Source: Pseudonocardiales bacterium
GTDB taxonomy: Bacteria > Actinomycetota > Actinomycetes > Mycobacteriales > Pseudonocardiaceae
Direction of reading: 5' to 3'
NCBI GenBank assembly: GCA_019241525.1
Contig: JAFAWY010000121.1
Span: 1 to 59,455 of the forward strand
DNA: 59,455 nt
Shown: positions 19,532 through 34,800 of the stretch, piece by piece
Layout of the letters: each line of letters starts with the position of its first letter
Numbering within the stretch: the stretch's first letter is position 1
The notes under the pieces: model-generated
Databases searched by the model: none
Told to the model about the DNA's origin: nothing
Seen by the model: only the letters and a program-made list of their open reading frames with translations
Program-made: the position numbers and the translations under genes

Positions 19532-22165
19532 CTACTCCGCGCGCAGTGCTTTGGCCAGTTCGGCGCGGCTGCTGATGCCGAGTTTCGCGTAAGCATTAGC
19601 CAGGTGCGCCTCCACGGTCCGGACCGAGAGGACCAAGCGCTCGGCGATGGCCTGATTCTTCAGGCCCTGCACAACCAGGCTGGCGACTTCGCCTTCCCGA
19701 GTGGTCAGCGGTCGCGGCGCGAGCTGCTCCAGAGCCGGAGTGCGGATCTCCTCGCAAGCTCGGGCCAGGCCAGCGGCGCGAGCTGTGGAGGCCGCCGCTC
19801 GCCGCCGATCACCGGCGCGCAGGTGCGCTGCGGCAGCATGCGCTGCGGCGTCGGTTGCCAGTAACCGGGCTCCCAACTTCTCGAACTCTGCGGCCACTTC
19901 ATCCAGCCCGCCACCGGCATTGGCGGCCGCTGCCTCGGCATGCGCGCTATAGGCAGCTACCAGGGGACCCTCGACCTGTTCGGCCAGCTGCCGCAACCGG
20001 TTGGCCACCTCGCTTGCCCGTCCTAACCGGACCGCGGCATGCAGCGCTTGCGCCTCGACAGCCCGCTGACCCATGTCACCGGCTACCCTGGCCGCCTGCT
20101 GTGTACGATCGATCGCCTGAGCGGTGCGGTCCTCGGCGGCCGCTTGCCAAGCCTCCGCCATCAACCACTCCGGTTCGAACACCGCGCAGTGCCGCCCGAT
20201 CTCGCCGCTATCCAGCAGCCTCCTGGCCTGGGCGGCGTCGCCTAGCTGAGCATGGGTTTGTGCCAGCAGGGCAATACACAGTTCCCGGAACCCTCCTGGG
20301 TCGCATTGACCCAGCCCGGCGACCGCCTCGGCGAGCCATCGGATGGCGGTACGTGGACGTCCTGCGGCTAGTGATGCCCATCCGATATGAGCGGCGGCCA
20401 GAGCATCCCCGGCCCACTGCGGCTGGCTCATGCACCACTCGTGTAAGGCAGTGGCTCGAGCTACCGCCTCGGGTACACGCCCAACCCGCATGAGCGCTGA
20501 GATCTCGGCATGCGCCAGGACCTGGCGGCATAACGCCATTTCCGGCTCAGTCGTGCAGCGGGCCAGAGCCGCCCAACCCGCTTCCACGGCGGACAGCACT
20601 TCGGTGGTGCGTCCCTGGACAGTCAACCCCGCCCCGGTTGCGCTCGACGCCCACACCGCAGCCTCTGGACTGACGCCCTCTGAGGCCAGGATCTCGGCGC
20701 CTGACTCTGCCGCCTGCTGCGGCCTCCCAGCAAAAAACGCCAGTACGCCCTGGACCGCGCTAATGCGCCGGCGCACCTCGTTGTCAACGGCGTCAGCGAC
20801 AGCTTTGTGCAGCATCCCCTCGGCCTTGGCCACCTGGTGGACACCGAAAAACAGATTCAGTGCCCGCACCACGGCCAGCCGTGACCGGTCCTCTGCAGAA
20901 GTGGCGAAGGGGGCTGTCGCCGCTGCGACCTCGTCGGCTTCGTCTGGGCAGCCCTGCCAGCGCACCGCCTCGATCAAGGCCAGGTGTGCCTGCACCCCGT
21001 CGCGGCCGTCACTTCCGTCAATCGCAGCCTGCGCCAGGCGGGCGGCGTTTTCGTGATCGAGTAGGGCGTTAGCGTGTACGGCGGCATCGGCCAGCAGGCT
21101 GGCGTGTGCCTGCGGTTGATCGCTATCCAGCAGCAGCAGACCGGCCCGGAGCAGGTCGTCTTGGCGTTTCCACGGCAGGTGTGTGTTCGCCAGCCTGCGG
21201 CGCAACTGGCAGGCATTGGCCTCCGGAAGCTGATCCCGCACCACGGTGGCGTAGATGGGATGCGCCAACCGCACCTCAGCTCGCCAGCCACTGTTGACGA
21301 CCCTGACCAAGCCCCGGCGCTCCAACACCGCGACCACCTCGGGATTGATCAAACTGGCCACCCGCCCCAGACCTAGCGGCTCGTCGGTGGCCAGCAGCTC
21401 CAGCGCGGTTCTCTCGTCGGCCCCCAATCCACCGAGCTGGCCCTGGACGATCTCGCGGAGGCGGGGAGTGGGCTCCATGCGGCCTTCCCAGCGCCACACG
21501 CCATCGCGCATCCGCAACTTCCCGGTCTCGCAGCCGCCTTCGACCAGTTCCCGCAGGAAAAGGGCGTTCCCGCGGGTAGCCCGCCACAGCCGTTCGATGG
21601 TGCGGCTGTCGACCACCCCGCCGAGCACAATGGTGACGAGACGGTTCATTGCCGCCCGCGGCAGTTGCGTCAGTTCCAGCCGGTCGGCCAAGCCGTTTTT
21701 CCATAGCGTCACCACTGGATCCGGCGCAGGTTCTCCGGTGCGCACGGTCAGCACCACGCATGCTGTGCGGGTCAAGGCCAGCTGATGGAGCAGCGTCACC
21801 GACAGCTCATCAAGCAGGTGTGCATCGTCCACGCCGATGACCAACCGGTGGCCCTTGCCCTGCTCGGCGATCGCGGCTCCGGCTCGCTGCAGCAACGTCA
21901 ACGGCTCAGACACTGTTTCCACTGCAGGTACCAGGTGCGCCACCGCTCCCAAAGGAATGGCCGCCGCCGCGTTAGTTCCCGCGGCCCACCGCGTCACCCG
22001 ACCACCACGCTTTGCCACTGCCAGCGCTTCGCGAGCAAGTCGTGTCTTGCCAACGCCGGCCGGGCCGGCGATGACGACGCTGCGTGATTCCCCACCAGTT
22101 AAACGCTCTGCGATAAACTGCAACTCTGAGTCACGCCCTGTGAGCGTCCACGAATCCGTTCTCAT
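19532..22165 (-). CDS. LAL-type LuxR regulator with AAA ATPase domain
   Basis: An 877-residue regulator of the LAL group (large ATP-binding LuxR). Walker A is GPAGVGKT at residues 34-41, and VIGVDDAHLLDE is the Walker B region. A long helical repeat region (about 330-800) resembles TPRs. The C-terminus is a LuxR helix-turn-helix (LTTREGEVASLVVQGL ... AERLVLSVRTVEAHL). LAL proteins are typically pathway-specific activators. It lies next to the glycine-rich peptide locus and points away from it, so it is the best candidate activator for that locus, by position only. The 327 bases upstream hold a 21-base-spaced direct repeat. Confidence 0.92.
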   Translation of the reverse strand: MRTDSWTLTGRDSELQFIAERLTGGESRSVVIAGPAGVGKTRLAREALAVAKRGGRVTRWAAGTNAAAAIPLGAVAHLVPAVETVSEPLTLLQRAGAAIAEQGKGHRLVIGVDDAHLLDELSVTLLHQLALTRTACVVLTVRTGEPAPDPVVTLWKNGLADRLELTQLPRAAMNRLVTIVLGGVVDSRTIERLWRATRGNALFLRELVEGGCETGKLRMRDGVWRWEGRMEPTPRLREIVQGQLGGLGADERTALELLATDEPLGLGRVASLINPEVVAVLERRGLVRVVNSGWRAEVRLAHPIYATVVRDQLPEANACQLRRRLANTHLPWKRQDDLLRAGLLLLDSDQPQAHASLLADAAVHANALLDHENAARLAQAAIDGSDGRDGVQAHLALIEAVRWQGCPDEADEVAAATAPFATSAEDRSRLAVVRALNLFFGVHQVAKAEGMLHKAVADAVDNEVRRRISAVQGVLAFFAGRPQQAAESGAEILASEGVSPEAAVWASSATGAGLTVQGRTTEVLSAVEAGWAALARCTTEPEMALCRQVLAHAEISALMRVGRVPEAVARATALHEWCMSQPQWAGDALAAAHIGWASLAAGRPRTAIRWLAEAVAGLGQCDPGGFRELCIALLAQTHAQLGDAAQARRLLDSGEIGRHCAVFEPEWLMAEAWQAAAEDRTAQAIDRTQQAARVAGDMGQRAVEAQALHAAVRLGRASEVANRLRQLAEQVEGPLVAAYSAHAEAAAANAGGGLDEVAAEFEKLGARLLATDAAAHAAAAHLRAGDRRRAAASTARAAGLARACEEIRTPALEQLAPRPLTTREGEVASLVVQGLKNQAIAERLVLSVRTVEAHLANAYAKLGISSRAELAKALRAE

Positions 22166-22492: not shown

Positions 22493-23455
22493 TTATCCGG
22501 AGTCGGGCACAACGGATGACATCCCCGATGTCTGAGAGCGGGTGATGCGGGGCGAGCCGCGGTAGCGCAGTACCGACGCTCCGGTGGCCTCCACGGCCAA
22601 CGTGTCGCTGACGGTGACGACCGCATGGCTGGCCCCAGACAGTTCTGCGTCGAGGCGGTGGGCGGTGAGGTCACCGAGCGGCAACCGGCTGGCTCCGGCC
22701 GCCTCCAGGTGAAAATCTTGCACCTGCCCAAACACTCCCACAGTGCCAGCTCCGGAAACGCCGGCCTGCAAGCGGTCCACCTGGACCGGCCCGGTCACCG
22801 AGCCCACGCCGCTCACCACCAGCTGCAGCGTGGGGCTGCGCACGGTATCGGTCAGCACGACGCGGCTGGCTCCGCTGCTAGCCACCCGATCAAGCCGGCC
22901 CACGGTCACGTCGGCCGACAGGGTGGCATTCCGGACGTTCATACCCGGCTTGATACCTAGCCGCAGCACTCCGCCGGTCACAGTGGCGTCGATCCGGTCA
23001 ACCAGGTTGTCGTCCATCCTGACCACCGCCTGCGCCGGTCCGCCCGTCCGCAAGTGCACGACGAAATTCGCCGCGGCCACCACCGCGGTGACTCGGGAAA
23101 GGGCAACCGTCCGGCTAGTCAGCCGGCCGGAGCCAGCCAGGGCGGCGGGATCGGAGAAGTCGCCACCGAGCGCACCGGGTGTCCCGTCAGCACCGGCGCC
23201 ACCGTCGGCGTTGCCACCGTTACCGCCATGGCCGTTGCTCCCCCAACTGCCATAGCCGTCCCCACCGTCACCCCCAATACCTCCGGCACCTCCGCTGGTG
23301 GTTCTGCTGGTACCAGCCGTGCCGGTACCAGCAGAACCTGGAAATGATCCCGTCGAGGTGCAACCCGCCAACAGTGCCGTGATCGCCAGCATCACTGCCG
23401 CCCGGGGAACCTGGATGGTGCCCCACCAAACACTGCACTCCGGGTCATCAGGCAC
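22493..23455 (-). CDS. glycine-rich lipoprotein with DUF2807-type beta-repeat domain
   Basis: A 320-residue predicted lipoprotein. A hydrophobic signal ends in the lipobox LLAGC (Cys32). Residues 55-98 form a glycine tract of the GGAGGIGGDGGDG type with Asn, Asp, Tyr and Trp interspersed. After about residue 105 comes a repetitive beta domain with periodic G-A-S/V units (LQLVVSGVGSV, LQAGVSGAGTV, FHLEAAGASRL, DAELSGASHAV), typical of DUF2807 / GIN-type adhesin-like domains. GTG 23455 is chosen because it overlaps the M50 stop codon (TAGTG), implying translational coupling. The frame stays open further upstream, but there it only shadows the M50 gene. The glycine tract is of the same style as in the five peptides beyond the M50 gene. 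Confidence 0.82.
   Translation of the reverse strand: MPDDPECSVWWGTIQVPRAAVMLAITALLAGCTSTGSFPGSAGTGTAGTSRTTSGGAGGIGGDGGDGYGSWGSNGHGGNGGNADGGAGADGTPGALGGDFSDPAALAGSGRLTSRTVALSRVTAVVAAANFVVHLRTGGPAQAVVRMDDNLVDRIDATVTGGVLRLGIKPGMNVRNATLSADVTVGRLDRVASSGASRVVLTDTVRSPTLQLVVSGVGSVTGPVQVDRLQAGVSGAGTVGVFGQVQDFHLEAAGASRLPLGDLTAHRLDAELSGASHAVVTVSDTLAVEATGASVLRYRGSPRITRSQTSGMSSVVPDSG
23301..23337. repeat. 14-bp perfect inverted repeat inside the lipoprotein gene
   Basis: Arms 23301-23314 and 23324-23337 (GTTCTGCTGGTACC and its complement) are separated by nine bases. It lies in the Gly/Thr/Ser linker just after the lipobox codon. Confidence 0.85.
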
Positions 23456-24798
23456 TACACTTTCCCCGCGCGTGTCCGCGCTATCGGCGAGCGAGTAAGC
23501 AGCCAGCGCACAGGCCGGCGGACCATCATGCCCAGCATCAACAACGATCCCACCCACGGGATCAATAGCAAGATGACCTGCACGACGCCCAGCGTGCTCT
23601 CGGCGATGTGGCCCTCCACCGCTGCAGCCGCCACTGCCCGGCACAGGTAGACCAGCCGATCCCATACCACCGGCAGCACCTTGGGGATCACCAGTAAGAA
23701 CCCGATCAACCAATACCCCAGGTAAGGCACCACGATGAGGACCCACAGGGTGATCGTGCGACGAGCCCACGGCTTGAGCTCTTGCACCCGGGGATGGGTC
23801 GGCCGCCCGGGGATAATGCTCGCCAGCACCGGACCCATCCGGCTGAAAAGATCCGGTACACCAATCAGGTCGGACAGGATGTAGTAGCCATCCAGCCGGA
23901 TCATCGGCAGGAACTGCGTCGCGGTCTCGATATGAAGTGCCACGATGGCCACCAGCAGCCACGGTGCGCCGGTATCGAGGTAGGCTGCGCACATTCCGGT
24001 AATGAACACCGCGTTGAAATAGACGCCGCCGAGATCGGTTCGCAGCCGCCCAACCCGGCTCAAACGATAGGAATCGGTGACCGTGCTGTAGAGCGCCGGC
24101 CACACCAAGTACAGCCCAAAGCCCATCACTCCAGGTTTGGCGCCACCATAGCGGCACGCGGCTACGTGCCCGCACTCGTGAAACGCGGCCGAGACCAGTA
24201 GCAACCCGATCACCAGCAACGTCAATGCCGGCTGATACACCAATGCCACCGCACTCGGCACGATCTGTCCCAGACCACCCTGAGCAATGATGGCCACGTC
24301 CAACCCGACGAATGCAGCCAGTGCGGCCAGAATCACCGGGGGCCAGAACATCGGTCCGAATAACCCGGCAATACGCCAGACCAACCTCTCGGGCACTACG
24401 CCGACCCGAAACTTTAACGCCAGCAACGGATCGGACTTCACCGCCATCTTTGGCTTGCCGTCGCCCTGCTCTGCGCCAGGTTGACCAGGCACCGAATCGT
24501 CGGCCACGATTCCTACCGGCTGCAACCGCTTTTCCAGCAGAAACGCCACCTGTTCGGCCTGCACTATCTTGCCGATCTCAGCGCTGAGCACCGTGGCCAG
24601 CTGCTCATGGTCACGCTCGCCATCCAGGCTGGCCGCCAACAGATATAACAAGCGCGGCAACTGGATGACCTGTCCGTCGACACGACGCACAATGTAGGGC
24701 GCCTGGACGAAACCCGATCCCTGATACTCCCCGATCAGTTCGATTCCCTCGGCCAGTCGCGGCGCCGTACCCACAACTGAGCCTGAATCAACCATCAC
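23455..24798 (-). CDS. M50 (site-2-type) membrane zinc metallopeptidase
   Basis: A 447-residue membrane protein of the 'peptide zinc metalloprotease' M50 group. The zinc motif HECGH is at residues 207-211 inside a membrane helix, and the third ligand is Asp303 in LDGYYILSD, the usual motif in this group. About six to eight further hydrophobic segments are visible. The soluble N-terminus (about 20-100, YIVRRVDGQVIQLPRLLYLLAASLDG) resembles the PqqD-like winged-helix part often fused to such peptidases, though I cannot confirm a leader-binding fold. Related proteins accompany peptide maturation or export loci. It is followed by the coupled lipoprotein and lies next to five peptide genes. The start is GTG 24798 or ATG 24795; neither has a strong ribosome site. 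Confidence 0.88.
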   Translation of the reverse strand: MMVDSGSVVGTAPRLAEGIELIGEYQGSGFVQAPYIVRRVDGQVIQLPRLLYLLAASLDGERDHEQLATVLSAEIGKIVQAEQVAFLLEKRLQPVGIVADDSVPGQPGAEQGDGKPKMAVKSDPLLALKFRVGVVPERLVWRIAGLFGPMFWPPVILAALAAFVGLDVAIIAQGGLGQIVPSAVALVYQPALTLLVIGLLLVSAAFHECGHVAACRYGGAKPGVMGFGLYLVWPALYSTVTDSYRLSRVGRLRTDLGGVYFNAVFITGMCAAYLDTGAPWLLVAIVALHIETATQFLPMIRLDGYYILSDLIGVPDLFSRMGPVLASIIPGRPTHPRVQELKPWARRTITLWVLIVVPYLGYWLIGFLLVIPKVLPVVWDRLVYLCRAVAAAAVEGHIAESTLGVVQVILLLIPWVGSLLMLGMMVRRPVRWLLTRSPIARTRAGKV

Positions 24799-24989: not shown

Positions 24990-25030
24990 TTTCAGCGGCG
25001 TCATTGCGTAAGGTTGCGGTGCTATAGCAT

Positions 25031-25067
25031 TGCGAAGGGGCGGCCGACTCCAGCCACCCCTTTCGCA
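25031..25067 (-). terminator. terminator of glycine-rich peptide gene 1
   Basis: An imperfect stem, GCGAAGGGG with CCCCTTTCGC (one bulged base), sits about 40 bases after the stop codon. Confidence 0.6.
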
Positions 25068-25105
25068 CTACGGCGCACCTGATGACGCCTGAACTACCCT
25101 TCGAC

Positions 25106-25375
25106 TCAGCTGTTGATGGCCCCTCCGGCACCGCCAGTACCATCGCCGCCTACGCCGCCGAAGCCGCTACCTGCGGAGTTGGTCTGGTCGCCCAGCAGGT
25201 TGACGTTGATGAGGTTGGCGCCGATTCCGCCACGCCCGATGCCACCGCGACCACCAACGCCGCCCTCGCCACCACGGCCACCGCTGATCGTGGTGAACAT
25301 CGACATCAGGGTACGGTGCGGCAACAGCTCGGCACGCTGCCTGTCGAGGTCAGCAAAGCTCAGTGCGTCAGACAT
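25106..25375 (-). CDS. glycine-rich leader-type peptide 1, 89 aa
   Basis: This is the last of five paralogous genes in transcription order and the most diverged of the four close copies. The N-terminus MSDALSFADLDRQRAELLP (residues 1-19) corresponds to the leader shared by all five. Residues 31-52 are a glycine tract (SGGRGGEGGVGGRGG). A conserved centre NLINVNLLGDQTNSAG follows, and the C-terminus is again glycine-rich (GGVGGDGTGGAGG). There is no Cys and no hydrophobic signal peptide. ATG 25375 follows AGGAGGAT. Codons are typical for the genome. The function is unknown; the architecture resembles a precursor peptide with a leader and a low-complexity core, or a PGRS-like structural protein. 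Confidence 0.85.
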   Translation of the reverse strand: MSDALSFADLDRQRAELLPHRTLMSMFTTISGGRGGEGGVGGRGGIGRGGIGANLINVNLLGDQTNSAGSGFGGVGGDGTGGAGGAINS

Positions 25376-25493
25376 AGATCCTCCTAGGAAAGGTGTTCCG
25401 GCGGCCTGTCGATGACCCCGGGGACTACGGACACCGCATCGGTGGCAGTACCGATTCGGCGCTCACCTACCGTGCCCATAGCCACACCCTCGT

Positions 25494-25537
25494 GGCAATC
25501 AGTAGTCGTACTTAACTCTTCTAGGTGCACTACGTAG
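25494..25537 (-). promoter_or_regulatory. shared upstream element P1 (peptide gene 1)
   Basis: This is one of five copies of a 43-44 base element. On the coding strand it reads CTASGTAGT, 11-12 bases, AGTTACGTG, then YGAYTACTGATTGCC. This copy has CTACGTAGT and ACTACTGATTGCC. It lies 119-162 bases before the start. Between it and the start are a -10-like TAGGTG and the inverted repeat ATCGG-n8-CCGAT (25438-25455). Confidence 0.75.
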
Positions 25538-25649
25538 TCTCAAGGACACTCCTGCTACGTAGCGACTACAGATGCCACGGAGATCCAGTCGGCGAATCAC
25601 CTACGTCGAAAGTCCGCCTCACCCCATTTTCCCTGGTAATTGGGCCCTA

Positions 25650-25696
25650 CTGGCTGGGAGGGGTGACCGGGCCCCGAGCACCCCTCCACCAGCCAG
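25650..25696 (-). terminator. terminator of glycine-rich peptide gene 2
   Basis: Arms CTGGCTGGGAGGGGT (25650-25664) and ACCCCTCCACCAGCCAG (25680-25696) pair with a small bulge. Confidence 0.65.
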
Positions 25697-25741
25697 CGGC
25701 GCTACGCACGATCAGGTGATCACCTAGTCGTGCAGCCCATC

Positions 25742-26014
25742 TCAGCTGCCCAGCGCCCCACCGGTGCCGCCCCCAGCGTCACCGCCAGCACCGCCGGTCC
25801 CATCGCCGGCGCCGTTGACCTGGTCGCCGAACAGGTCGATGTTGAGGATGTTCAGGCCGATGCCACCACGGCCCTGGCCGCCCGCGCCACCCTTGCCGGC
25901 GTTGCCGCCACGGCCACCACTGGCATCCGTGTGCAGGAGCGACATGACAGTGCGGGCCGGGAGCAACTCCACGTGCTGAGAGTCAACTTCAGCAAAGCTC
26001 AATGCGTCAGACAT
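25742..26014 (-). CDS. glycine-rich leader-type peptide 2, 90 aa
   Basis: Paralogue 2. The leader is MSDALSFAEVDSQ followed by VELLPARTVMSLL. The first glycine tract is SGGRGGNAGKGGAGGQGRGG. The hydrophobic centre is LNILNIDLFGDQVNGAG, and the C-terminal tract is DGTGGAGGDAGGG. ATG 26014 is chosen because it gives the common MSD start, with AGGAGG seven bases upstream; the in-frame TTG one codon earlier sits too close to that site. The gene has its own promoter-type element and terminator, so it appears monocistronic. A short stem CCCGG-CTAA-CCGGG (26037-26050) lies just before the ribosome site. Confidence 0.88.
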   Translation of the reverse strand: MSDALSFAEVDSQHVELLPARTVMSLLHTDASGGRGGNAGKGGAGGQGRGGIGLNILNIDLFGDQVNGAGDGTGGAGGDAGGGTGGALGS

Positions 26015-26118
26015 CAATCCTCCTAGGAAAGGTGATCCCGGCTAACCGGGCCGAAACACCTCATCGGTTGGCAGTGCCGATTTGGCTATCCACACCTTGC
26101 CTAGCCGCACGGTCGGGT

Positions 26119-26162
26119 GGCAATCAGTAGTCACACGTAACTGTGCCGCAGCTACTACCTAG
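26119..26162 (-). promoter_or_regulatory. shared upstream element P2 (peptide gene 2)
   Basis: A copy of the 44-base element with CTAGGTAGT, then AGTTACGTG and TGACTACTGATTGCC. It lies 105-148 bases before the ATG. The inverted repeat ATCGG-n9-CCGAT (26063-26081) lies between it and the gene. Confidence 0.78.
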
Positions 26163-26287
26163 GACGCGGATTTTCTTCTCATACCTAGCCGACCACAAAG
26201 TCCACTTAAGCGTGCCACCACAAGTACCTATCTCGGAACCGACTCCCCGAACCATCTGGAGTCCGAACTGCTGCACTTGAATCAGGG

Positions 26288-26324
26288 GGTAAAGGGGGCA
26301 GCAAATTGAGCCACCCCCTTTACC
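26288..26324 (-). terminator. terminator of glycine-rich peptide gene 3
   Basis: A perfect 11-bp stem GGTAAAGGGGG / CCCCCTTTACC with a 15-base loop, 50 bases after the stop codon. Confidence 0.7.
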
Positions 26325-26373
26325 AATTCCTGTCGCGCACGACCCCTGTGATCGTCCGACGACACTAATTGGG

Positions 26374-26649
26374 TCAGCTGTGGACAGATCCGCCCTTGCC
26401 ACCATCGGCCGAGCCGCCGGCACCGCCGGTTCCGTCGCCAGCGCTGTTGGTCTGGTCACCGAAAAGGTCGATGTTCAGCACGTTCAGACCAATTCCGCCG
26501 CGACCCTGGCCACCGGCGCCACCGTGGCCACCGTTGCCGCCACGGCCGCCGTTCTCGCCACCGGTGTGCAGCAGGGACATGACGGTGCGAGCCGGCAGGA
26601 GCTCCACGTGTTGCCCGTCGATCTCCGCAAAGCTCAGTGCGTCAGACAT
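26374..26649 (-). CDS. glycine-rich leader-type peptide 3, 91 aa
   Basis: Paralogue 3, the closest to the family consensus. The leader is MSDALSFAEIDGQ followed by VELLPARTVMSLL. A short variable segment HTGGEN precedes the tract GGRGGNGGHGGAGGQGRGG. The centre is LNVLNIDLFGDQTNSAG, and the second tract is DGTGGAGGSADGGKGG. About 40 percent of residues are Gly. There is no Cys, Trp or signal peptide. ATG 26649 has AGGAGG eight bases upstream. Identity with paralogue 4 is very high at protein and DNA level, which points to recent tandem duplication. Confidence 0.9.
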   Translation of the reverse strand: MSDALSFAEIDGQHVELLPARTVMSLLHTGGENGGRGGNGGHGGAGGQGRGGIGLNVLNIDLFGDQTNSAGDGTGGAGGSADGGKGGSVHS

Positions 26650-26757
26650 CAAATCCTCCTAGGGAATATTGCCCCGGTGATACCCGAGGACTACATCGCT
26701 TCATCGGCGGCATTACCGATTCAGCAACACATACTTTGCCCGCCATTAAGGCCACCC

Positions 26758-26801
26758 GGCAATCAGTAATCGCACGTAACTCCACAGCGTGGACCACGTA
26801 G
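26758..26801 (-). promoter_or_regulatory. shared upstream element P3 (peptide gene 3)
   Basis: A copy of the 44-base element with CTACGTGGT, AGTTACGTG and CGATTACTGATTGCC. A -10-like TATGTG (26728-26733) follows downstream in the direction of transcription. It is preceded by GGGCA, which recurs with small changes in the other copies. The inverted repeat ATCGG-n8-CCGAT (26703-26720) would then fall at or just after the transcript start. Confidence 0.78.
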
Positions 26802-26880
26802 CCATGTGGAATTCTGCTATTCCGGTACCTACCACGGAGATACGTTCACGAACTGGCCTCGATAAGTACAGCAAACGAAA

Positions 26881-26914
26881 GGGAGGGGTACCCGCTAAGC
26901 GGGCCACCCCTCCC
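26881..26914 (-). terminator. terminator of glycine-rich peptide gene 4
   Basis: GGGAGGGGT and ACCCCTCCC pair perfectly, with an inner CCGC/GCGG stem. Confidence 0.7.
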
Positions 26915-26963
26915 CGATAAACGGCACACTGCGATCGTTAGATCGCTAGCAGCATCGGCTCAC

Positions 26964-27239
26964 TCAGCTTTGCACAGCTCCACCGTTGCCACCATCGGCG
27001 GTGCCGCCCGCGCCACCGGTCCCGTCACCAGCGCTGTTGGTCTGGTCGCCGAACAGGTCAATGTTCAGAAGGTTCACCCCGATGCCCCCGCGGCCGGCGC
27101 CACCGTTGCCGGCGTGGCCGGCGTTCCCGCCACGGCCGCCGTTTTCGCCACCGAGGTGTACCAGCGACATCACGGTACGGGCAGGCAGGAGCTCCACGTG
27201 CTGCCCGTCGATCTCAACAAAGCTCAATGCGTCAGACAT
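26964..27239 (-). CDS. glycine-rich leader-type peptide 4, 91 aa
   Basis: Paralogue 4. The leader MSDALSFVEIDGQ plus VELLPARTVMSLV differs from paralogue 3 at only two positions. The glycine tract is GGRGGNAGHAGNGGAGRGG, the centre LLNIDLFGDQTNSAG, and the C-terminal tract DGTGGAGGTADGGNGG. The centre and its flanks are more conserved than the glycine tracts, which vary in length and in the residue between glycine pairs. ATG 27239 has AGGAGG upstream. It has its own upstream element and terminator. Confidence 0.9.
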   Translation of the reverse strand: MSDALSFVEIDGQHVELLPARTVMSLVHLGGENGGRGGNAGHAGNGGAGRGGIGVNLLNIDLFGDQTNSAGDGTGGAGGTADGGNGGAVQS

Positions 27240-27344
27240 CAAATCCTCCTAGGAAAGGACGCCCCGGAGACTTCCGGGACGAAAACACGTCATCGGCGGC
27301 ATACCGACTCGGCATCACATACACTGCCCACATCAGGGTCGCGA

Positions 27345-27388
27345 GACAATCAGTATTCACACGTAACTCGCAGGTCCGAACTACCTAA
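27345..27388 (-). promoter_or_regulatory. shared upstream element P4 (peptide gene 4)
   Basis: A copy of the 44-base element with TTAGGTAGT, AGTTACGTG and TGAATACTGATTGTC. The downstream inverted repeat is ATCGG-n7-CCGAC (27292-27308), one mismatch from the other copies. Confidence 0.75.
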
Positions 27389-27484
27389 CGAACCGGCTGC
27401 AAACCAACAATATGCCGACCGGATACGTAGCTGACCGCGACTGGCGTCGCATATTTGGAACCCAAGATTTACCGTAGAAAAAAG

Positions 27485-27526
27485 CGCACCGGGAAGGGTG
27501 GCCGAATGGCCACCCTTCCCGGTGCG
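27485..27526 (-). terminator. strong intrinsic terminator of peptide gene 5
   Basis: A perfect 19-bp stem (27485-27503 with 27508-27526) with a 4-base loop, followed on the minus strand by a run of T residues (27478-27483). It is the clearest intrinsic terminator in the locus. Confidence 0.9.
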
Positions 27527-27569
27527 TGATCGCTCTGCAGTGACGATCTGGTGGCTGCAGAGCGGTTGG

Positions 27570-27884
27570 TTAGGAAGCTGCAGGGGCAGCCGCAGCAGGA
27601 GCGGCAGTGGCAGCACCACCAGTAGTGGCACCACCATCGGCGCTGCTCTCGCCACCAAGGCCACCGGTCAGCGAGTTGGTCACGTTGCCCTCGGTGTAGA
27701 AGTACGGGTACAAGAAAAACGCCTTGCCCTCGCCCTCGCCACCAACGCCACCCTTGCCACCCTGGCCACCGTTGCCGGCGTCTCCGCCGCGTGCGCCGGA
27801 AAGGTTGAACAATGACAGAACAGTACGTGCAGGCAGCAGTTCGACGTGCTGCACGTCGATCTCCGCGAAGCTCAGTGCATCCAT
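27570..27884 (-). CDS. divergent glycine-rich leader-type peptide 5, 104 aa
   Basis: The outlier of the family and the first in transcription order. The leader is kept (MDALSFAEIDVQ, then VELLPARTVLSLF) but lacks the Ser at position 2. The glycine tract GARGGDAGNGGQGGKGGVGG is followed not by LNIDLFGDQ but by an aromatic segment KAFFLYPYFYTEGNVTNSL. The C-terminus is Ala/Pro-rich (ATAAPAAAAPAAS). The leader is therefore under stronger constraint than the rest, as in precursor peptides. ATG 27882-27884 follows AGGAGG. It has its own upstream element and the strongest terminator of the set. Confidence 0.87.
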   Translation of the reverse strand: MDALSFAEIDVQHVELLPARTVLSLFNLSGARGGDAGNGGQGGKGGVGGEGEGKAFFLYPYFYTEGNVTNSLTGGLGGESSADGGATTGGAATAAPAAAAPAAS

Positions 27885-27996: not shown

Positions 27997-28039
27997 GGCA
28001 ATCGGTAATCGCACGTAAATCCCAGAGTGAAGTACCTAG
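27997..28039 (-). promoter_or_regulatory. shared upstream element P5 (peptide gene 5)
   Basis: The most diverged copy (43 bases), with CTAGGTACT, then TTTACGTG and CGATTACCGATTGCC. The downstream inverted repeat is degenerate (ATCGA-n9-CCGAC, 27941-27959). Next to the ribosome site GTCCCGG and CCGGGGAC can pair (27907-27927). Confidence 0.65.
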
Positions 28040-28138: not shown

Positions 28139-31100
28139 TCAGCCAGCAGGTATGCCACGTAAGAGGTCCCGCAACCCGTCGGCATCGAGCAGGTCAGTAG
28201 GCCGCAGCGTGCGGTTGTCCCGGACGTAGTGAAATGCTGCCCGCACCCGATCGAGCGGAGCTCCGGACAGCGCCGACCAGGCCAACCGGTAGGCGGCGAG
28301 CTGCACGCTCACCGCCGGCAGTGCCAACTCATCGGGCACGGGTCCGGTCTTCCAATCGACCACTGTCCACCCGCCGTCCGGGTCCGCGAACACCGCATCC
28401 ATCCGGCCGCGCACGCCTACTCCGTCCAACACCGTCTCGAACGGAACTTCAACATCATGCGCGCTACGGTGTGCCCACGCACTGGCGAGAAACGCCGCCT
28501 GTAGGGACGCCAGATCAGTGTTCGGCGCGGCTGACTCGTCGGCAGCGCCGGGGAGTTCATCATGATCGATCAACCGGGTGGAACCGAACCGCCGTTCCAG
28601 CCAGGCGTGAAATGCGGTCCCGTTGCGCGCCATCGGGTTTGGGGGCAACGGCAGCGGCCTGCGTAACCGCGCCGCCAGGGCTGCCGGGTCGGCGGCGAGT
28701 TCCACAAGCTGGCTCACTGACAGGTGTGCGGGCAGCAGTACCTGTTGGTGAGCCCGCCGGGCATCTCGCTCGGCGAGCAGCACGTCCACCTCTTGCTGCC
28801 ATTGCCCTGCAGCAGGCACTGGTGAGTCGTCTGTAGTGCACAGCTTGAGGGCGTCGTGTACTAGCGCAGCGCCCGCCACCACCGCATCGCGGCGGTGCCC
28901 GAGCGGGTCAACTGGCCAGGCTTGTTGCCTCGGCGCAGCGTCGAGCGGGTTGGTCTGGCCCTCCGCAGGGGCCGGCGCCCACTGATCGATAACGCAAGGG
29001 ACGGCATCGCGAATCTCCAGCAGGAACGGCGATACCTGCTTCGGCGCGGTCCCGGCCTCAGCCCAATGATGACCACTGACCAGAAGTGCCTGCTGGGCAC
29101 GGGTCAGGGCGACATACAGCAGCCGGCGTTCCTCCGTCAGCCGGCGGGCGTCAAAAGCCTCCTCGTGGGCGGCCAGGATCTCGGCCAGTTGCTTCTGATC
29201 CGCCCCGGCAGGCAGCGTGAGATCGGGCAGATCTGCACGGTCGCCGCGCAGGGCTACCGGCAGCTCGGTGACCGTCCGCAGCCACGACGAGCTTTTCTTA
29301 GCCGCCGGGAATATCCCGTCGACCAGGTGTGGAAGGGCCACCACCTGCCATTCGAGGCCTTTGGCGGCATGCACGGTCAGGATCTGCACCCGATCTGGGG
29401 CGACTTCCACCTCACCTTGCTCCAGACCGTCTTCGGCGTCCTCGGCGGTGCTCAAGTAGTCCAGCAGTGCGGGTAAACCAGCCAGTGGGCTGGCAGCGGC
29501 AAAGTCTGCGACCACATCGGCAAAGGCATCCAGATGGGCTCGACCCGCGGGTCCGGGACGGACCAGCGATTCGGTGTCGAGCAGCAAGGTGCGCTCGGCA
29601 TCGGCAACCAGGTCGGTCAGCGGCTGGCTGATCCGGCGGCGCAACGCTCGTAACTCGGCAGCCAGCGTGCGCAGCCGCCGGTAGCCCAGCTCGGAGTAGC
29701 GCGCCGGGTCGCCGGGTGAGTCCAACGCATCCACCAACCCCGCCGCCTCAGCTGCTTCCCCGGGCAGATCGCCAGGCAACGCAGCCAGCACCGCGGCCGC
29801 ATCAGCGCTCTGGCTTGATCCATTCTGGTCGGTACCACCCGTACCCGGTGCCGACTGGTGATCGATCGCCAATTCCCGGGCCCGTTCCCACAAGGCGGCC
29901 AGATCGGCCGTGCCGATCCGCCAGCGCGCACCGGTGAGCAGCCGCACCGCGGCGGTGCCGGCAAGCGGGTCGACGAGTAACCGCAGCACGCTCACCAGGT
30001 CGCGGATCTCCGGCGTGTCGAGCAACCCACCGAGCCCCACCACCTCGACCGGTACCTCGCGGGCCCGCAGCGCCGCGGCCAGCGGGGCCATATCCGCGCG
30101 GCGGCGCACCAGCACCGCAGCACTGGGCGGGATCCCGCGATCGGCCACTGCGCGGTGCCAGCGGTCGGCGATGGCGGCGGCAACCCAGCTGACTTCGGTA
30201 TGGGCGTCGGGCAGCAACGCAACGCGAACCTCACCGGATTCAGCGCCATCCCGGCAGCACAACTCCCCTACCCGGACCGCGCCACCGCGCAACTCACCGG
30301 AAGCCGCGTTCGCCACCGCGAGAACCTCTGGCGGGTTGCGGAAGCTGGTCAGCAGGCCGCGGGTAACGGCCGGTGACCCGTCGGCGCGGGGGAAATCGGT
30401 CGTGAAGCGCGGCAGGTTCGCCGCAGAGGCACCGCGCCAGCCGTAGATCGACTGGCACGGGTCACCGACCGCGGTCACCGGGATTCCGGTAGCACCGAAC
30501 AGCGACCGCAACAACACTCGCTGGCTATGCCCGGTGTCCTGGTACTCGTCGAGCAGCACTGCCTGGAAACGGGCCCGCTGCGCCGCACCCACCTCCGGAT
30601 GGTCACGCGCCAACATGGCGGCAACGCTCATCTGGTCACCGAAGTCCAGCACCGCCTCGCGGCGCTTGAGCTCGAAGTAACGCTGCACTAGCGGCAGCAT
30701 CGCCAGCCGCGACCGTTGCGCCTCCAACGCCGGCTTGAGATCAGCGCGCAGCGGGCCACGCTGGCGGGACCCGGGTGCGGCAGTGACCAGCGCATTGATC
30801 AACGCTTCGGTATATTCGCGCAGCTGGGCCGGCTCGCACAGATGCTCGGCAAGCTGCCCGGCAATCCCAAGCAGCCAGCCGGTGACCGTCCGCGGCACCT
30901 TCCCGTCCAGATCCAGATCAGGTTCCCATCCAGCGGTGACCCGGTGTGCTAACTGCCACGCGCCGGTCTGGGTAAGCAACCGGGCCCCAGGGTCGGTGGG
31001 TAATCGCAGCCCGTGCTCGGCGACCAGCCGGCCTGCGTAGGCGTGATAGGTCAGCACGGTGGCCTCACCGGTCAGCGCGGCGGCCCTGCGCTGACCGGTG

Positions 31101-31435
31101 GAGTCCAGTCGATCCAGCACCGGTGAGCCGGCGAGCCGGCGTAGCCGCGTCCGGATCCGTTCGGCGAGCTGCTGGGCCGCCTTGCGGGTGAATGTCAAGC
31201 CGAGCACGCCATCGGGTGTGATGTACCCGTTGGCGACCAACCACACCACCCGGGCCGCCATTGTCTCTGTCTTACCCGATCCCGCGCCGGCGATGACAAG
31301 TGTCGGTTCGTCCGGCTCGGCGGCGATGACGTCGGCTTGCTCAGCGGTGGGCGGGGGCGTACCGAGTTCGGCGGCGAGCTCAACGGGTCCGATACCGGCG
31401 GTCGGCCGCCCGCCTTCGTCCGGTGACGCCGTCAC
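28139..31435 (-). CDS. adnB: AdnB subunit of the AdnAB helicase-nuclease
   Basis: A 1098-residue UvrD/RecB-type protein matching AdnB (Rv3201c). Walker A is IAGAGSGKTET, motif II VLLDEYQDTGHSQ, motif III VGDPCQSIYGWRGAS, motif VI LLYVALTRAQQALL. The C-terminal PD-(D/E)xK nuclease domain has GRMDAVFADPDG and VVDWKTG with the catalytic Asp and Lys. AdnAB resects DNA double-strand breaks for recombination in actinobacteria. GTG 31435 is chosen because it overlaps the adnA stop (GTGA), which implies coupled translation; the longer frame to 31498 lies entirely inside adnA. Confidence 0.94.
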   Translation of the reverse strand: MTASPDEGGRPTAGIGPVELAAELGTPPPTAEQADVIAAEPDEPTLVIAGAGSGKTETMAARVVWLVANGYITPDGVLGLTFTRKAAQQLAERIRTRLRRLAGSPVLDRLDSTGQRRAAALTGEATVLTYHAYAGRLVAEHGLRLPTDPGARLLTQTGAWQLAHRVTAGWEPDLDLDGKVPRTVTGWLLGIAGQLAEHLCEPAQLREYTEALINALVTAAPGSRQRGPLRADLKPALEAQRSRLAMLPLVQRYFELKRREAVLDFGDQMSVAAMLARDHPEVGAAQRARFQAVLLDEYQDTGHSQRVLLRSLFGATGIPVTAVGDPCQSIYGWRGASAANLPRFTTDFPRADGSPAVTRGLLTSFRNPPEVLAVANAASGELRGGAVRVGELCCRDGAESGEVRVALLPDAHTEVSWVAAAIADRWHRAVADRGIPPSAAVLVRRRADMAPLAAALRAREVPVEVVGLGGLLDTPEIRDLVSVLRLLVDPLAGTAAVRLLTGARWRIGTADLAALWERARELAIDHQSAPGTGGTDQNGSSQSADAAAVLAALPGDLPGEAAEAAGLVDALDSPGDPARYSELGYRRLRTLAAELRALRRRISQPLTDLVADAERTLLLDTESLVRPGPAGRAHLDAFADVVADFAAASPLAGLPALLDYLSTAEDAEDGLEQGEVEVAPDRVQILTVHAAKGLEWQVVALPHLVDGIFPAAKKSSSWLRTVTELPVALRGDRADLPDLTLPAGADQKQLAEILAAHEEAFDARRLTEERRLLYVALTRAQQALLVSGHHWAEAGTAPKQVSPFLLEIRDAVPCVIDQWAPAPAEGQTNPLDAAPRQQAWPVDPLGHRRDAVVAGAALVHDALKLCTTDDSPVPAAGQWQQEVDVLLAERDARRAHQQVLLPAHLSVSQLVELAADPAALAARLRRPLPLPPNPMARNGTAFHAWLERRFGSTRLIDHDELPGAADESAAPNTDLASLQAAFLASAWAHRSAHDVEVPFETVLDGVGVRGRMDAVFADPDGGWTVVDWKTGPVPDELALPAVSVQLAAYRLAWSALSGAPLDRVRAAFHYVRDNRTLRPTDLLDADGLRDLLRGIPAG

Positions 31436-34400
31436 TCCGTCACCTGCCGGCCCGAGTCGTGCAGGGGGCATGCGATCTTGGAGGGGCATCGGGCGCAATC
31501 GCCGTTGTCGATGGCGAGGAACTGTGGCCCCGCAGTGCGCCGGGCCGCCTCCCGCACGACACCGCGCCAGTGCGCCACGCCGGATGGGCCCAGTGGCTGT
31601 TGATTGCGCTGTACGGCGGCGGCGGTGCGAGCGGACACCTGCACGATGCAGGCACCCCCGGGCTCGGCGGGCAAACCCTGATCGGTAAAGGCACCGTGCG
31701 CGGCCGCGAGCTGGTAGACCGCCAGCTGCGGGTGATCTTCGGCAGCCTTCTTGCTGACCGGTACCTTGCTGGTCTTCACATCGACGATGACCGGGCGGCC
31801 ATGGCAGTCACGCTCCAGCCGATCCACCCGACCGCGCAGCATGACCGCAGGGTCGCTATCAGGCGTATCAGGGCCGGGTGGTGGAAGGTGCACCTCGATG
31901 TCTTGCTCGCAGCACACTTCGGTGAACTCACCACGGCTATCACGCCACCAGCGGCGGAACATCTCCACCATCTGGCGGACCCGTTGCTGCTCAGCGCGGG
32001 AGTACCACGGGGCCCCCGCATCGACGCCGGCCCACGCTTGCGCCAGAGCGTCTTCAAGCTGCTCCTCGGTAGCCCCAGCTGCCACCGCCTGAACCAACCT
32101 GTGCACGATTGACCCGGTAACGGCGCCCAGCGCCTGGACGTCCTCGCCGCCATGCCGGGTGAGCAGCCACCGCAACGGGCAATTCGACACCAGCTCGACC
32201 AGCGACGGTGACACCCTGGCAGGTTCACCGAGCATTCGCAGCGCGGCCTGACTCGACAGCGGCCCAAGCCCATACCAGGAATCGGGATGCGCGCCAGGGA
32301 CTCCCGCCTGGGCTAGCTGCGCCAGACCCGCTGCCGCATCGTGGCGCCGCTGGTCGGTCTCCTCGGGATCGCAACACACCCGGCGCAACTCGGCGACGAG
32401 TTCGGGCAGGCTCAGGCCCCGGTTCCGGGCGGCGGCGGGGTGCTCGAAGATCGATGCACCGGGTTCTTCGAGTTCAGCGAGGAACCGGGAGGGCTGTTCG
32501 TCTTCCCCTTGTACCGCGCTGACCAGCAACCGGCGCCGGGCACGGCTGGCCGCCACCAGCAACAGTCGCCGTTCCTCGGCCAGCAGCGGCGCGGTGCGCG
32601 ATACCGTGCTGGAGTCGATGCCGGCGACTACGTCGACGAGCTGCTCCACGCCGAGTAGCGAGCCCCGTAACCGCAAGTCTGGCCAGCTGCCTTCCTGCAC
32701 TGCGGGCACCGCGACGACGGACCACTCACGCCCTGCGGCCGCATGAACGGTCAGTACGGCTACCGCATTACCCTGAGGCGACCGATCAGCCAGCGAACCA
32801 CCGGGTATCTGTTGCTCGCTGAGATAGTCGCAGAAGCCGAGCACCCCGGACGGACCACAGTCAGCGCCTGGGAGGCGATCCGCATAGCGAGCGGCAGCGT
32901 CGAACAGCGCGACGACCGCATCAAGGTCCCGATCGGCTTGCGCACCGGCGGGGCCACCACGCATCGCCAGGGCGGCCCAGCGCGACGCGAGCCCACTGCG
33001 GTGCCATACCTGCCACAGCACCTCCTCTGCGGTCTTGCCGCTGCGGGCGGCATCGGCGGCCGTTCGCAGCAAGCCGGCAAGTCTCCTTACCGGTGCCGCA
33101 GTGCGGTGGTCGAACCCGTCGAGTGGGTCGGCGCGATCCAGCGCGTCAACCAGCAGCTCACCGCTGGTTCGGGTACCGCCTGCGGCGAGCTCGCGGCGGC
33201 GCAGCTCCCGACGCAGCCTGCGCAATCCGACCGGGTCGGCGCCCACGAAGGGGGAGGTGAGCAGCGCATCTGCCGTCTCCTGGTCGAGCGCTGCGCGGTG
33301 CACCGCGCAGCGCAGCACCGCCAGCAATGGCACCACCGCGCCCTCGTAGGCCACTGGCACCTCCTCGCGGGGCACCGCTACCGGTACCCCTACCGCGAGC
33401 AGCGCCCGGCGCAATGCCGGCAATGCCCTCGCCGTGGAGCGCACCAGCACCGCCATGTCCGACCACGCCACGCCGTGCAGCAGGTGGGCCCGGCGTAGCT
33501 GATCAGCTACCCAGGACGCCTCGGCGGCCGCGGAACCAAACACCCGGACGGTGACCTGCCCACCCGGACTCTCCCCCACCGGACCGTGCTGGTCAGCGCG
33601 CGGGCCGGGCAGCCGGCTGGCCAGCCGTGACACGGCGGTCCGCACTGCTGGGGCCATCCGGTGGTCGGTGCACATCCGCACCACCGGCGACTCGCCGGTG
33701 GTCAGCAGGCTCGGATCGGCGCCGCGAAAGGAAAAGATCGTCTGGTCTGGATCGCCGAACAGCAACAGCTCGTGTGCCCGGGAGCCGAGCCTGCTGATCA
33801 GCCTGGCCTGCAACGGGTCGAGGTGCTGCGCATCGTCGACGATGAGGTGGCGCACCCGGTCGGATTCTCGGCGCAACACCTCGGCGTCGGTATCAAGAAC
33901 CAGCAGCGCCGCGGACACCAGCTCAGCGGCGTCCAGAGCCGGCGCGGTGGCTTGCGGGATAGCGGTGCCCACCGATCCGCGAAGCAGCATGACCTGCTCG
34001 TAGCTGCGGAAGAAACGCCCAGCCGCCATCCACTCGTCGCGCCCGCTGCGGCGGCCTAGGGAGATGAGATCCTCTGGGGCCAGTCCGCGTTCCGCAGCGC
34101 GCATCAGCAAGTCTCGCAACTGCGCGGCGAAGGCCGGCAAACTCAGTGCCGGACGTAGGCGCGGCGGCCAACCTCGCCCGCCGGCTTGCAGCTCTCCGGC
34201 CAGCAGGTCCCGGATCACCACATCCTGCTCGGCGCCGGACAGCAATCGGGGCGGTGGCACATCGTGCAGCGAGGCCTGCAGCCTGAGGACGGAAAACGCA
34301 TAGGAGTGCACGGTGCGCACTAGCGGTTCCCGCACGGTAGGCGTGACACCGCCGGCGACCAGCTGCTCGACAATGCGTTCCCTGAGGTCAACGGCCGCGC

Positions 34401-34620
34401 GGCGGCTGGATGCGAGCACCAGCACCTGCTCGGGATCTGCTCCCTGCCGTACCCGATCGGCGACGGTGTGGGCCACTAGGGTGGTCTTACCGGTACCCGG
34501 ACCGCCCAACACCCGAAGCGGGCCCCCGGCGTGCTCCAAAACCCGGCAGGCATCGGAACCCCACAGCGCGGTGCGCGGTGTGACGGTTACGCAACGAATC
34601 AGGTCGGGCACGCTGCGCAT
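31432..34620 (-). CDS. adnA: AdnA subunit of the AdnAB helicase-nuclease, with Fe-S iron staple
   Basis: A 1062-residue protein matching AdnA (Rv3202c). Walker A is GGPGTGKT at residues 39-46, motif II LIVDDAQHLDP, motif III FGDPDQTIFSFRGADPS. The nuclease core reads GRVDRLERD and VIVDVKTSK. An iron-staple pattern is complete: one Cys before the nuclease core (SNCPLRWLL) and C-x2-C-x5-C at the end (CARCPSKIAC). It lies upstream of adnB with a four-base overlap. The start is uncertain: ATG 34620 is used because it begins shortly before the first conserved segment. It is divergent from the alkyltransferase-like gene. Confidence 0.92.
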   Translation of the reverse strand: MRSVPDLIRCVTVTPRTALWGSDACRVLEHAGGPLRVLGGPGTGKTTLVAHTVADRVRQGADPEQVLVLASSRRAAVDLRERIVEQLVAGGVTPTVREPLVRTVHSYAFSVLRLQASLHDVPPPRLLSGAEQDVVIRDLLAGELQAGGRGWPPRLRPALSLPAFAAQLRDLLMRAAERGLAPEDLISLGRRSGRDEWMAAGRFFRSYEQVMLLRGSVGTAIPQATAPALDAAELVSAALLVLDTDAEVLRRESDRVRHLIVDDAQHLDPLQARLISRLGSRAHELLLFGDPDQTIFSFRGADPSLLTTGESPVVRMCTDHRMAPAVRTAVSRLASRLPGPRADQHGPVGESPGGQVTVRVFGSAAAEASWVADQLRRAHLLHGVAWSDMAVLVRSTARALPALRRALLAVGVPVAVPREEVPVAYEGAVVPLLAVLRCAVHRAALDQETADALLTSPFVGADPVGLRRLRRELRRRELAAGGTRTSGELLVDALDRADPLDGFDHRTAAPVRRLAGLLRTAADAARSGKTAEEVLWQVWHRSGLASRWAALAMRGGPAGAQADRDLDAVVALFDAAARYADRLPGADCGPSGVLGFCDYLSEQQIPGGSLADRSPQGNAVAVLTVHAAAGREWSVVAVPAVQEGSWPDLRLRGSLLGVEQLVDVVAGIDSSTVSRTAPLLAEERRLLLVAASRARRRLLVSAVQGEDEQPSRFLAELEEPGASIFEHPAAARNRGLSLPELVAELRRVCCDPEETDQRRHDAAAGLAQLAQAGVPGAHPDSWYGLGPLSSQAALRMLGEPARVSPSLVELVSNCPLRWLLTRHGGEDVQALGAVTGSIVHRLVQAVAAGATEEQLEDALAQAWAGVDAGAPWYSRAEQQRVRQMVEMFRRWWRDSRGEFTEVCCEQDIEVHLPPPGPDTPDSDPAVMLRGRVDRLERDCHGRPVIVDVKTSKVPVSKKAAEDHPQLAVYQLAAAHGAFTDQGLPAEPGGACIVQVSARTAAAVQRNQQPLGPSGVAHWRGVVREAARRTAGPQFLAIDNGDCARCPSKIACPLHDSGRQVTE

Positions 34621-34800
34621 GCAACCATGGGGCGCCGACAATCGGCGGCGCGGGACGGCACACCAGCCGCCGTGAACGCTGCACATGCTGCGTGGCCAGG
34701 CAGTCGGCAAGTCGATCTCGTCGAGTTCCGGCACTTTCACCGAGTCCCAAGACAGCGATCATGGGATAGTCGATCCGAGTGCCGGCGGAGGAAGACGGCG

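Follow-up and report, generated by a model that had tools for sequence, protein, structure and literature searches.

The question raised by this locus is what a row of five tandem genes for short glycine-rich peptides is made for, and whether the N-terminus that they share marks them as precursors of a processed product. The genes (A1 to A5) are carried on the minus strand of contig JAFAWY010000121.1 from Pseudonocardiales bacterium (assembly GCA_019241525.1), whose whole stretch of 59,455 nucleotides was analyzed and is referred to here as the window. The minus-strand order is two UvrD-type genes, A5, A4, A3, A2, A1, an M50-type metallopeptidase (the M50 protein), a DUF2807 lipoprotein and a LAL-type LuxR regulator. 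A sequence-only reading made earlier had taken the five peptides as an undescribed family with leader and core. The results showed that the leader occurs together with the M50 protein and spans Actinomycetota, and that the glycine-rich core is just one of the core types found on it.

Leader and M50 protein across Actinomycetota

A search of 394 genomes of the class recovered the M50 protein from 58 of them, which represent 23 of 138 genera, and leader model A7 (28 positions, 25 rows, drawn from 13 of the 58 genomes) matched 58 of the same 394 genomes, with 57 genomes common to both. When the 13 contributing genomes were left out, the leader was found in 44 of 45 M50-positive genomes. Fisher's exact test for the co-occurrence gave 1e-66 for the full set in comparison to 2e-55 without the 13 genomes, both values being uncorrected for relatedness. 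In the genome with the M50 protein only (G165), the match begins at contig base 165 and contains one in-frame TAG, and the upstream region is missing from the contig; in the genome with the leader only (G142), the precursor ends 235 bases from the contig end and runs towards it, which is too close for an M50 gene. The M50 protein was also found in all 11 genomes searched of the genus, with one to three matches each, and in 23 of 296 genomes of a phylum sample that overlaps the class set.

At the level of single loci, leader-type open reading frames (ORFs) stood beside the M50 gene in 18 of 18 loci of a named-genome scan (L017 to L031 come from nine assemblies, and L024 and L025 are identical). 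For the distant M50 loci, a regular expression (regex) anchored on HExGH found a leader-type ORF in the 1.5 kb ahead of the M50 gene in 23 of the 27 assessable loci (of 29), in comparison to 2 of 27 for the antisense control and 82 of 1000 for random stretches; this count superseded two looser regex counts (8 of 10 recognised M50 proteins, and 12 of 18). The four loci missed by the regex (L047, L053, L060 and L063) were recovered by the leader hidden Markov model (HMM) with E values of 2e-6 to 4e-5. In the phylum sample, the leader HMM matched 8 of 10 loci at E up to 1e-4, while the regex gave clear precursors in only four of the 10 (L081, L082, L086 and L089). Repeated proximity to an M50 peptidase and to a glycine-rich lipoprotein, which the sequence-only reading had put forward as a check, was seen across the loci of relatives. 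The named carriers are Pseudonocardia nigra, Gandjariella thermophila, Streptomyces sp. NBC_00557 and Streptomyces changanensis. The proteins of the two Streptomyces are labelled "hypothetical protein" in RefSeq and the family has no Pfam or NCBIfam model, in agreement with the earlier view that it is undescribed. As side observations, the opposite-strand leader ORFs of L083 and L084 are perhaps divergently transcribed, and four of six records from a plasmid search were distant M50 proteins outside Actinomycetota.

A constant leader on unrelated cores

Within the genome that carries the window (4.72 Mb in 148 contigs, 98% complete), 18 precursors with such a 27-residue leader (…LSFAEIDGQHVELLPARTVLSLF) were located, five in the window cluster, six on C102, two on C109, and one each on C79, C51, C70, C54 and C33. 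The five-row alignment query gave these 18 matches and the A3 query gave 19 at E up to 1, the nineteenth (E 0.435, inside a 528-codon frame) being probably due to chance. The mean identity for precursors outside the cluster was 0.63 for the leader in comparison to 0.23 for the core and 0.22 for the shuffled core (143 pairs), and within the cluster it was 0.78 for the leader versus 0.56 for the core (10 pairs). The cores of the 18 precursors vary from glycine-rich to threonine/serine-rich and hydrophobic, six of the 18 carry two Cys, and the dispersed genes apparently sit amid unrelated genes (ORFs judged by eye, without a family scan). A conserved leader joined to a variable core in short precursors, as found here, is one of the marks of ribosomally synthesized and post-translationally modified peptides (RiPPs), and the leader/core architecture described earlier stands.

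Same-leader matches were found in 11 of 11 searched genomes of the genus, with 5 to 27 in each (some genes counted twice), by which chance is excluded, and the five small genes are real; no match to the genus leader model was found in another 50 genomes, drawn from the family and the order. Written most broadly, the leader is roughly E-[IL]-x2-[QE]-x2-E-x-LP-x-[RK]-x2-[LM]-S, distant leaders show the same pattern (LTDEELEQQTGEDLPDREQMSL, ELDTERTELLPTRETLT, EELNKLAGELLPERAVLS and EELAAEGGTALPDKEVIS), and the profiles of genus and distant leaders can be aligned gap-free across 27 columns (hhalign 97.4%, E 9.5e-12), so that homologues with the same leader are widespread. One precursor of Pseudonocardia nigra (L032:9350-9800), with the leader ELLPART, has a long Asp/Glu-rich run ahead of the GGxGG tract.

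We also calculated the ratio of nonsynonymous to synonymous substitution rates (dN/dS) for leader and core. The pooled values for the window in comparison to L017 were 0.20 for the leader and 0.19 for the core, while the single-gene leader values were 0.60 for A1 and 0.62 for A2 (with dS of 0.05 to 0.06), 0 for A3 and A4, and 0.31 for A5. Four orthologue sets gave 0.03, 0.33, 0.13 and 0.12 for the leader and 0.34, 0.30, 0.21 and 0.64 for the core. Judged by these ratios, both leader and core are under purifying selection, the leader values being drawn from few sites; the pooled leader values, at 0.03 to 0.33, are far from the value near 1 named in advance as speaking against the family. The earlier statement that the leader is better conserved than the rest holds among paralogues, but among orthologues the core is conserved as well.

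For the five genes of the window, the coordinates, minus strand and lengths given earlier were all confirmed, as were the leader, the GGxGG tracts and the conserved centre between the glycine tracts, which is exact in A3 and A4, reads LNIDLFGDQVNGAG in A2 and LINVNLLGDQTNSAG in A1, and is missing from A5. The part after the leader is 62 to 77 aa long, and the C-terminal residue is Ser in all five but variable among relatives. The five lack Cys, as stated before, although six of the 18 precursors of the genome do not. No Pfam match at E up to 1, the PE domain included, was found for the five precursors, and NCBIfam gave a single chance-level match to a CsdA helicase model (E 0.82), which agrees with the claimed absence of a known domain. 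DUF7531 (E 0.024), Gasdermin (0.35) and Fimbrial_CS1 (0.63) were rejected as precursor families, all being below the Pfam/NCBIfam cut-offs. No membrane-grade hydrophobic stretch was found in A1 to A5 by hydrophobicity (no signal-peptide predictor was run), and Rfam gave no match over 22 to 30 kb of the window.

The M50 protein and its putative extracytoplasmic partners

The M50 protein has 447 aa, with HECGH at residue 207, LDGYY at residue 302 and about five hydrophobic segments, and H207, E208, H211 and D303 are invariant in 20 of 20 aligned sequences (window included). The Pfam M50 model matched it marginally (E 0.13), while the NCBIfam model daptide_HExxH (NF041824) matched residues 32 to 317 with E 4.2e-29, at 101.8 bits in comparison to a cut-off of 300, and the epipeptide protease profile gave E 4.4e-11, also below its cut-off. 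The best match of a PDB profile search was a weak one to PqqD over residues 40 to 77 (E 0.47), and in a relative the closing part of the ApyI model was matched (E 0.011). Residues 15 to 100 thus look like a PqqD/RRE (RiPP recognition element) domain. A second gene of this RRE-M50 type was observed at C54 of the same genome (L013:7045-8900); it is 63% identical, has its own precursor directly upstream and has no cis box.

In 14 of 16 near-relative loci (the window and L017 to L031), the M50 gene is followed by one for a lipoprotein with a glycine-rich tract (e.g., GGNGYGGNGGDANGGGTGGNGG) ahead of a DUF2807-type part; tract and lipobox were judged by eye, DUF2807 by Pfam on the window and L018, and the tract is less regular in L028 and L031. 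For the 29 distant loci, a regex scan of about 1.5 kb beyond the M50 match (L050 runs off its contig) detected a C-x2-C domain as a C-terminal fusion of the M50 protein in 10 and as the product of a separate gene just downstream in 11, while eight gave none; the separate versions of L069, L080 and L091 have a signal-peptide-like start by eye. The fused domain gave no Pfam match at E up to 0.1, and NCBIfam gave just CpoB at 0.011, further on in L075. In L075:8914-11325 and L065:6864-9395, the domain fused to the M50 C-terminus has two C-x2-C motifs and is encoded separately elsewhere. A locus on a plasmid of Streptomyces changanensis has two glycine-rich leader peptides and the M50 gene, with a PGRS-like glycine-rich protein with a signal-like start (L092:1006-1608; WP_257375598.1) in place of the lipoprotein. 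Core type and partner type seem to be matched, on few independent cases, because glycine-rich cores go with a glycine-rich lipoprotein or PGRS-like protein in the loci examined.

The common upstream box and other cis elements

A 22-base box sits 104 to 118 bases ahead of the start codon in A1 to A5. When its pattern (TTACGTGNGANTACTGATTGCC) was searched with up to three mismatches, nine sites were found in the genome, each of them preceding a leader ORF; the reversed-pattern control gave no site in this genome or across the 11 genus genomes. The 11 genus genomes contain 78 box sites, of which 71 precede a leader ORF by 70 to 118 bases. Sixty-two of the 78 were paired by eye with listed leader ORFs at 70 to 118 bases, mostly 102 to 112; the remaining 16 comprise nine before a leader ORF (74 to 112 bases), one before a truncated leader-like start (L101) and six before none. 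The boxes without a leader ORF behind them in L104 and L105 are similar copies that perhaps mark a dead precursor. A weight matrix made from the nine sites was applied to the upstream regions of 60 leader ORFs (the window and L009 to L031, each of the identical loci L024 and L025 being counted). It gave more than 25 bits for 45 of them, 17.7 for the C33 copy and less than 8 for the other 14, a group that includes the listed C102, C79 and C54 copies. Our guess is that the LAL regulator reads the box.

The 44 aligned upstream regions also keep GGCA..GTATGT, AATCGG..TGCC..CCGATGA and CACCTTTCCTAGGAGGA, and a conserved ribosome-binding site TAGGAGGA was found at each of the five genes. An inverted repeat, AATCGG..CCGATGA, is conserved there, as is an unusually long CACCTTTCCTAGGAGGA around the ribosome-binding site (window 25380-25470 and equivalents in the 44 regions). 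RNAalifold gave 10 pairs for the 5' region, one of them with double changes (2 of 22 sequences), and a covariation term of -0.35; therefore sequence conservation is clear there, while RNA structure is not. The hairpins 3' of the five genes beat every one of 200 shuffles (z -3.85 to -11.96), and a T-run terminator was called at one of the five only, after A5. A sigma-70 promoter scan gave one site, not above chance. The earlier claim that each gene is its own transcription unit is consistent with the box, ribosome-binding site and 3' hairpin that each of them has, while the terminator and promoter calls leave the separate units putative.

Comparison with known systems

Prochlorosins have one conserved leader on many unrelated cores with dispersed precursors, and are made into lanthipeptides by one synthetase. 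The present peptides are similar in their constant leader, unrelated cores and dispersed genes, but a Pfam scan of eight neighbours (10.8 to 34.7 kb) revealed no modifying enzyme; these neighbours are UvrD helicases, M16 peptidases, NAD-binding and MarR proteins and one protein without a family. Epipeptides need a radical SAM epimerase, and none was found among the eight scanned neighbours (the whole genome was not searched for one). The epipeptide protease (EpeP/YydH/LiaK) is, like the present protein, of the M50 type, and is thought to both cut and export (PMC10885120); no RRE is described for it in the available text of that source, while the present M50 protein has an RRE-like N-terminus.

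The closest likeness is to daptides, in which an RRE fused to the intramembrane peptidase DapP/MpaP is the proposed leader remover and DapB/C/D/M turn the C-terminal Thr into an amine, as given in the available parts of the daptide papers (PMC10036551, PMC12338566). Both systems have an intramembrane peptidase fused to an RRE or, in the present case, to an RRE-like domain, and both have multiple precursors, an occurrence in Actinomycetota and a leader motif in which acidic residues are combined with Leu and Pro. The differences are that DapB/C/D/M are absent from the scanned neighbours (to which the search was confined), that no C-terminal Thr is present, that the post-leader part is much longer than the roughly 21 to 24 aa of daptides as described in that text, and that the precursors are scattered; the five peptides were on these grounds not assigned to daptides. 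Because daptides are said there to have emerged from a wider group of RRE-containing peptidases (PMC10036551), the present proteases may sit unnamed in the data of that paper.

Two other families were considered and rejected. PE_PGRS proteins share the glycine-rich triplet tracts and the paralogue family, and models of their triplets in the available part of the source (PMC9436101) show polyglycine-II sandwiches on the cell surface, but the present peptides have a 27-aa LPxR leader for the PE domain, are much shorter, come from a genome that is not mycobacterial by its relatives, and show no PE domain match in the five precursors. Membership of the McbA (microcin B17) family was rejected with the absence of YcaO, for which no match was found in this genome while control genomes were positive in 5 of 14; the YcaO complex had been stated to be absent before. 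A literature search, which did not cover supplementary data, turned up neither an account of this leader nor, apart from daptides, one of RRE-M50 proteins. The logic of leader, RRE and M50 protease is known from RiPPs, and the present combination was not found in that search.

Proposed mechanism and alternative explanations

With a probability of roughly 0.7, we infer that the leader is bound and cut off by the RRE-M50 protease, which thereby frees an unmodified core, and that an extracytoplasmic partner retains the product. Many short precursors would share one constant leader, the M50 protein would bind it through its RRE-like N-terminus and pass it to the intramembrane active site, and the protease would cut near the leader end, soon after LPxRTVLS; the place of the cut is guessed from a drop in conservation after LPxRTVLSLF, seen past position +11 from ELLP when 58 distinct precursors are compared. 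Cleavage would then free the core to the outside without modifying enzymes, and the partner encoded with the protease, in this genus the glycine-rich DUF2807 lipoprotein, would hold it. Binding, intramembrane cleavage and release are proposed here on the model of daptides and epipeptides. Because the glycine-rich tract of the partner lipoprotein resembles the cores, these probably build a glycine-rich surface layer or fibre, and a polyglycine-II layer tied to the lipoprotein is our own reading of this likeness. The dispersed precursor genes would be co-regulated through the common upstream box.

Several observations weigh against this interpretation. The co-occurrence counts ignore phylogeny, yet presence and absence vary inside genera (g34 and g72 are mixed). 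In the phylum sample, L085 has no leader match and L090 a weak one (E 0.093), and in L083 and L084 the leader matches lie on the strand opposite the M50 gene. The RRE assignment is drawn from sub-cut-off profile matches, and the surface role from composition and gene neighbours. The partner gene was unrecovered in two of 16 nearby loci (L027 and L029) and in eight of 29 distant loci. Box sites without a leader ORF number six of 78 (L096, L097, L103, L104, L105 and L107), with one more before a truncated ORF, and at up to three mismatches the box is missing at nine of the 18 precursors of this genome, the C33 copy having a weak site. Lastly, M50 (site-2) proteases often act in signalling and regulatory proteolysis.

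This last point, together with the LAL LuxR regulator that adjoins the cassette, would fit peptides that stay inside the cell and serve a regulated intramembrane protease as substrates or decoys, with no exported product. We consider this highly improbable, since the five precursors are without a membrane-like segment, the M50 protein resembles leader proteases, and extracytoplasmic-looking partners recur, some of them fused to it. The same logic of leader and protease could also deliver secreted antimicrobial or signalling effectors, the diversity of the cores then being an arsenal. This is unlikely, even though an RRE-M50 protease is proposed for the haemolytic daptides and an M50 protease for epipeptides in the available text on both, and even though the high core diversity on one leader, the scattered copies, the two Cys of six precursors and the core dN/dS of 0.64 in one orthologue set would suit it; the other three sets gave lower core values, the eight scanned neighbours included nothing recognisable as an immunity gene, an ABC transporter or a modification enzyme, and the partner lipoprotein has the same glycine-rich composition as the cores. 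That the locus is simply a daptide cluster, or one of another known RiPP kind, with its modifying enzymes elsewhere in the genome, is scarcely credible. The M50 protein is similar to the daptide protease, daptide clusters likewise have multiple precursors, and a genome-wide search for daptide enzymes was not made; but no aminotransferase, iron-type dehydrogenase or methyltransferase was found in the eight scanned neighbours, the C-terminal residue is Ser in the five and variable in relatives in comparison to the invariant Thr of daptides, and YcaO is absent.

If the reading of leader removal by the RRE-M50 protease is right, leader-guided maturation is separated from chemical modification, and a single genome can use it to make as many as two dozen different unmodified peptides, probably structural ones, many of them controlled through a common regulatory box. 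Such a pathway of peptide maturation would be new for soil actinobacteria. It would give a role to a protein pair without a family name in 23 of 138 sampled class genera, and glycine-rich surface proteins outside mycobacteria would gain a testable assembly route in culturable Streptomyces. The leader model, the protease and the partner are a handle for finding further members. A wider and more doubtful proposal, put forward tentatively, is an Actinomycetota-wide export route free of Sec, Tat, type VII and ABC systems, with the LPxR leader as address, the RRE-M50 protein as gate and cutter, and structural self-assembling cores that would meet matched partners, glycine-rich cores with a glycine-rich lipoprotein or PGRS-like protein and Asn/Ala/Gln-rich cores with the C-x2-C domain. 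A protease acting as a general exporter of unmodified structural peptides would be categorically new. In relation to the sequence-only reading, the architecture, the undescribed status and the neighbours stood, while the RRE-like N-terminus of the M50 protein and its likeness to daptide-type leader proteases, 13 further precursors, the other core types and the cis box had been missed.

Features of the window and other neighbours

Table 1. Positions of the precursor genes, cis elements and neighbouring genes in the window.
Feature	Position	Strand	Description
UvrD-type helicase/nuclease gene	31435-34740	-	AdnAB-like by our own reading
UvrD-type helicase/nuclease gene	28142-31498	-	AdnAB-like by our own reading
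Cis box of A5	27997..28018	-	TTACGTGNGANTACTGATTGCC family, 1 mismatch
Precursor A5	27570..27884	-	104 aa; leader MDALSFAEIDVQHVELLPARTVLSLF and Gly-rich core, centre FYTEGNVTNSLTGG
Intrinsic-terminator-like site after A5	27485..27526	-	19-bp stem, T run; z -11.96
Cis box of A4	27345..27366	-	1 mismatch
Precursor A4	26964..27239	-	91 aa
Strong hairpin 3' of A4	26870..26963	-	z -4.40
Cis box of A3	26758..26779	-	0 mismatches
Precursor A3	26374..26649	-	91 aa
Strong hairpin 3' of A3	26270..26373	-	z -4.99
Cis box of A2	26119..26140	-	0 mismatches
Precursor A2	25742..26014	-	90 aa
Strong hairpin 3' of A2	25640..25741	-	z -4.44
Cis box of A1	25494..25515	-	2 mismatches
Precursor A1	25106..25375	-	89 aa
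Strong hairpin 3' of A1	25020..25105	-	z -3.85
RRE-like domain (about residues 15-100, putative) fused to M50 intramembrane metallopeptidase	23455..24798	-	Presumed leader protease
Lipoprotein with LLAGC lipobox (by eye), Gly-rich tract and DUF2807 domain	22493..23392	-	ATG before lipobox; true start maybe slightly upstream
LAL-type LuxR regulator (AAA_16 + GerE)	19532..22165	-	Conserved beside the cassette; candidate regulator (guess)

Near the cassette, two adjacent M16 peptidase genes were observed on the minus strand (window 13154-15858), with counterparts in L018, L021 and L024/L025; M16 proteases are the leader-removing enzymes of some lanthipeptide pathways, according to the available text of the source (PMC10885120).

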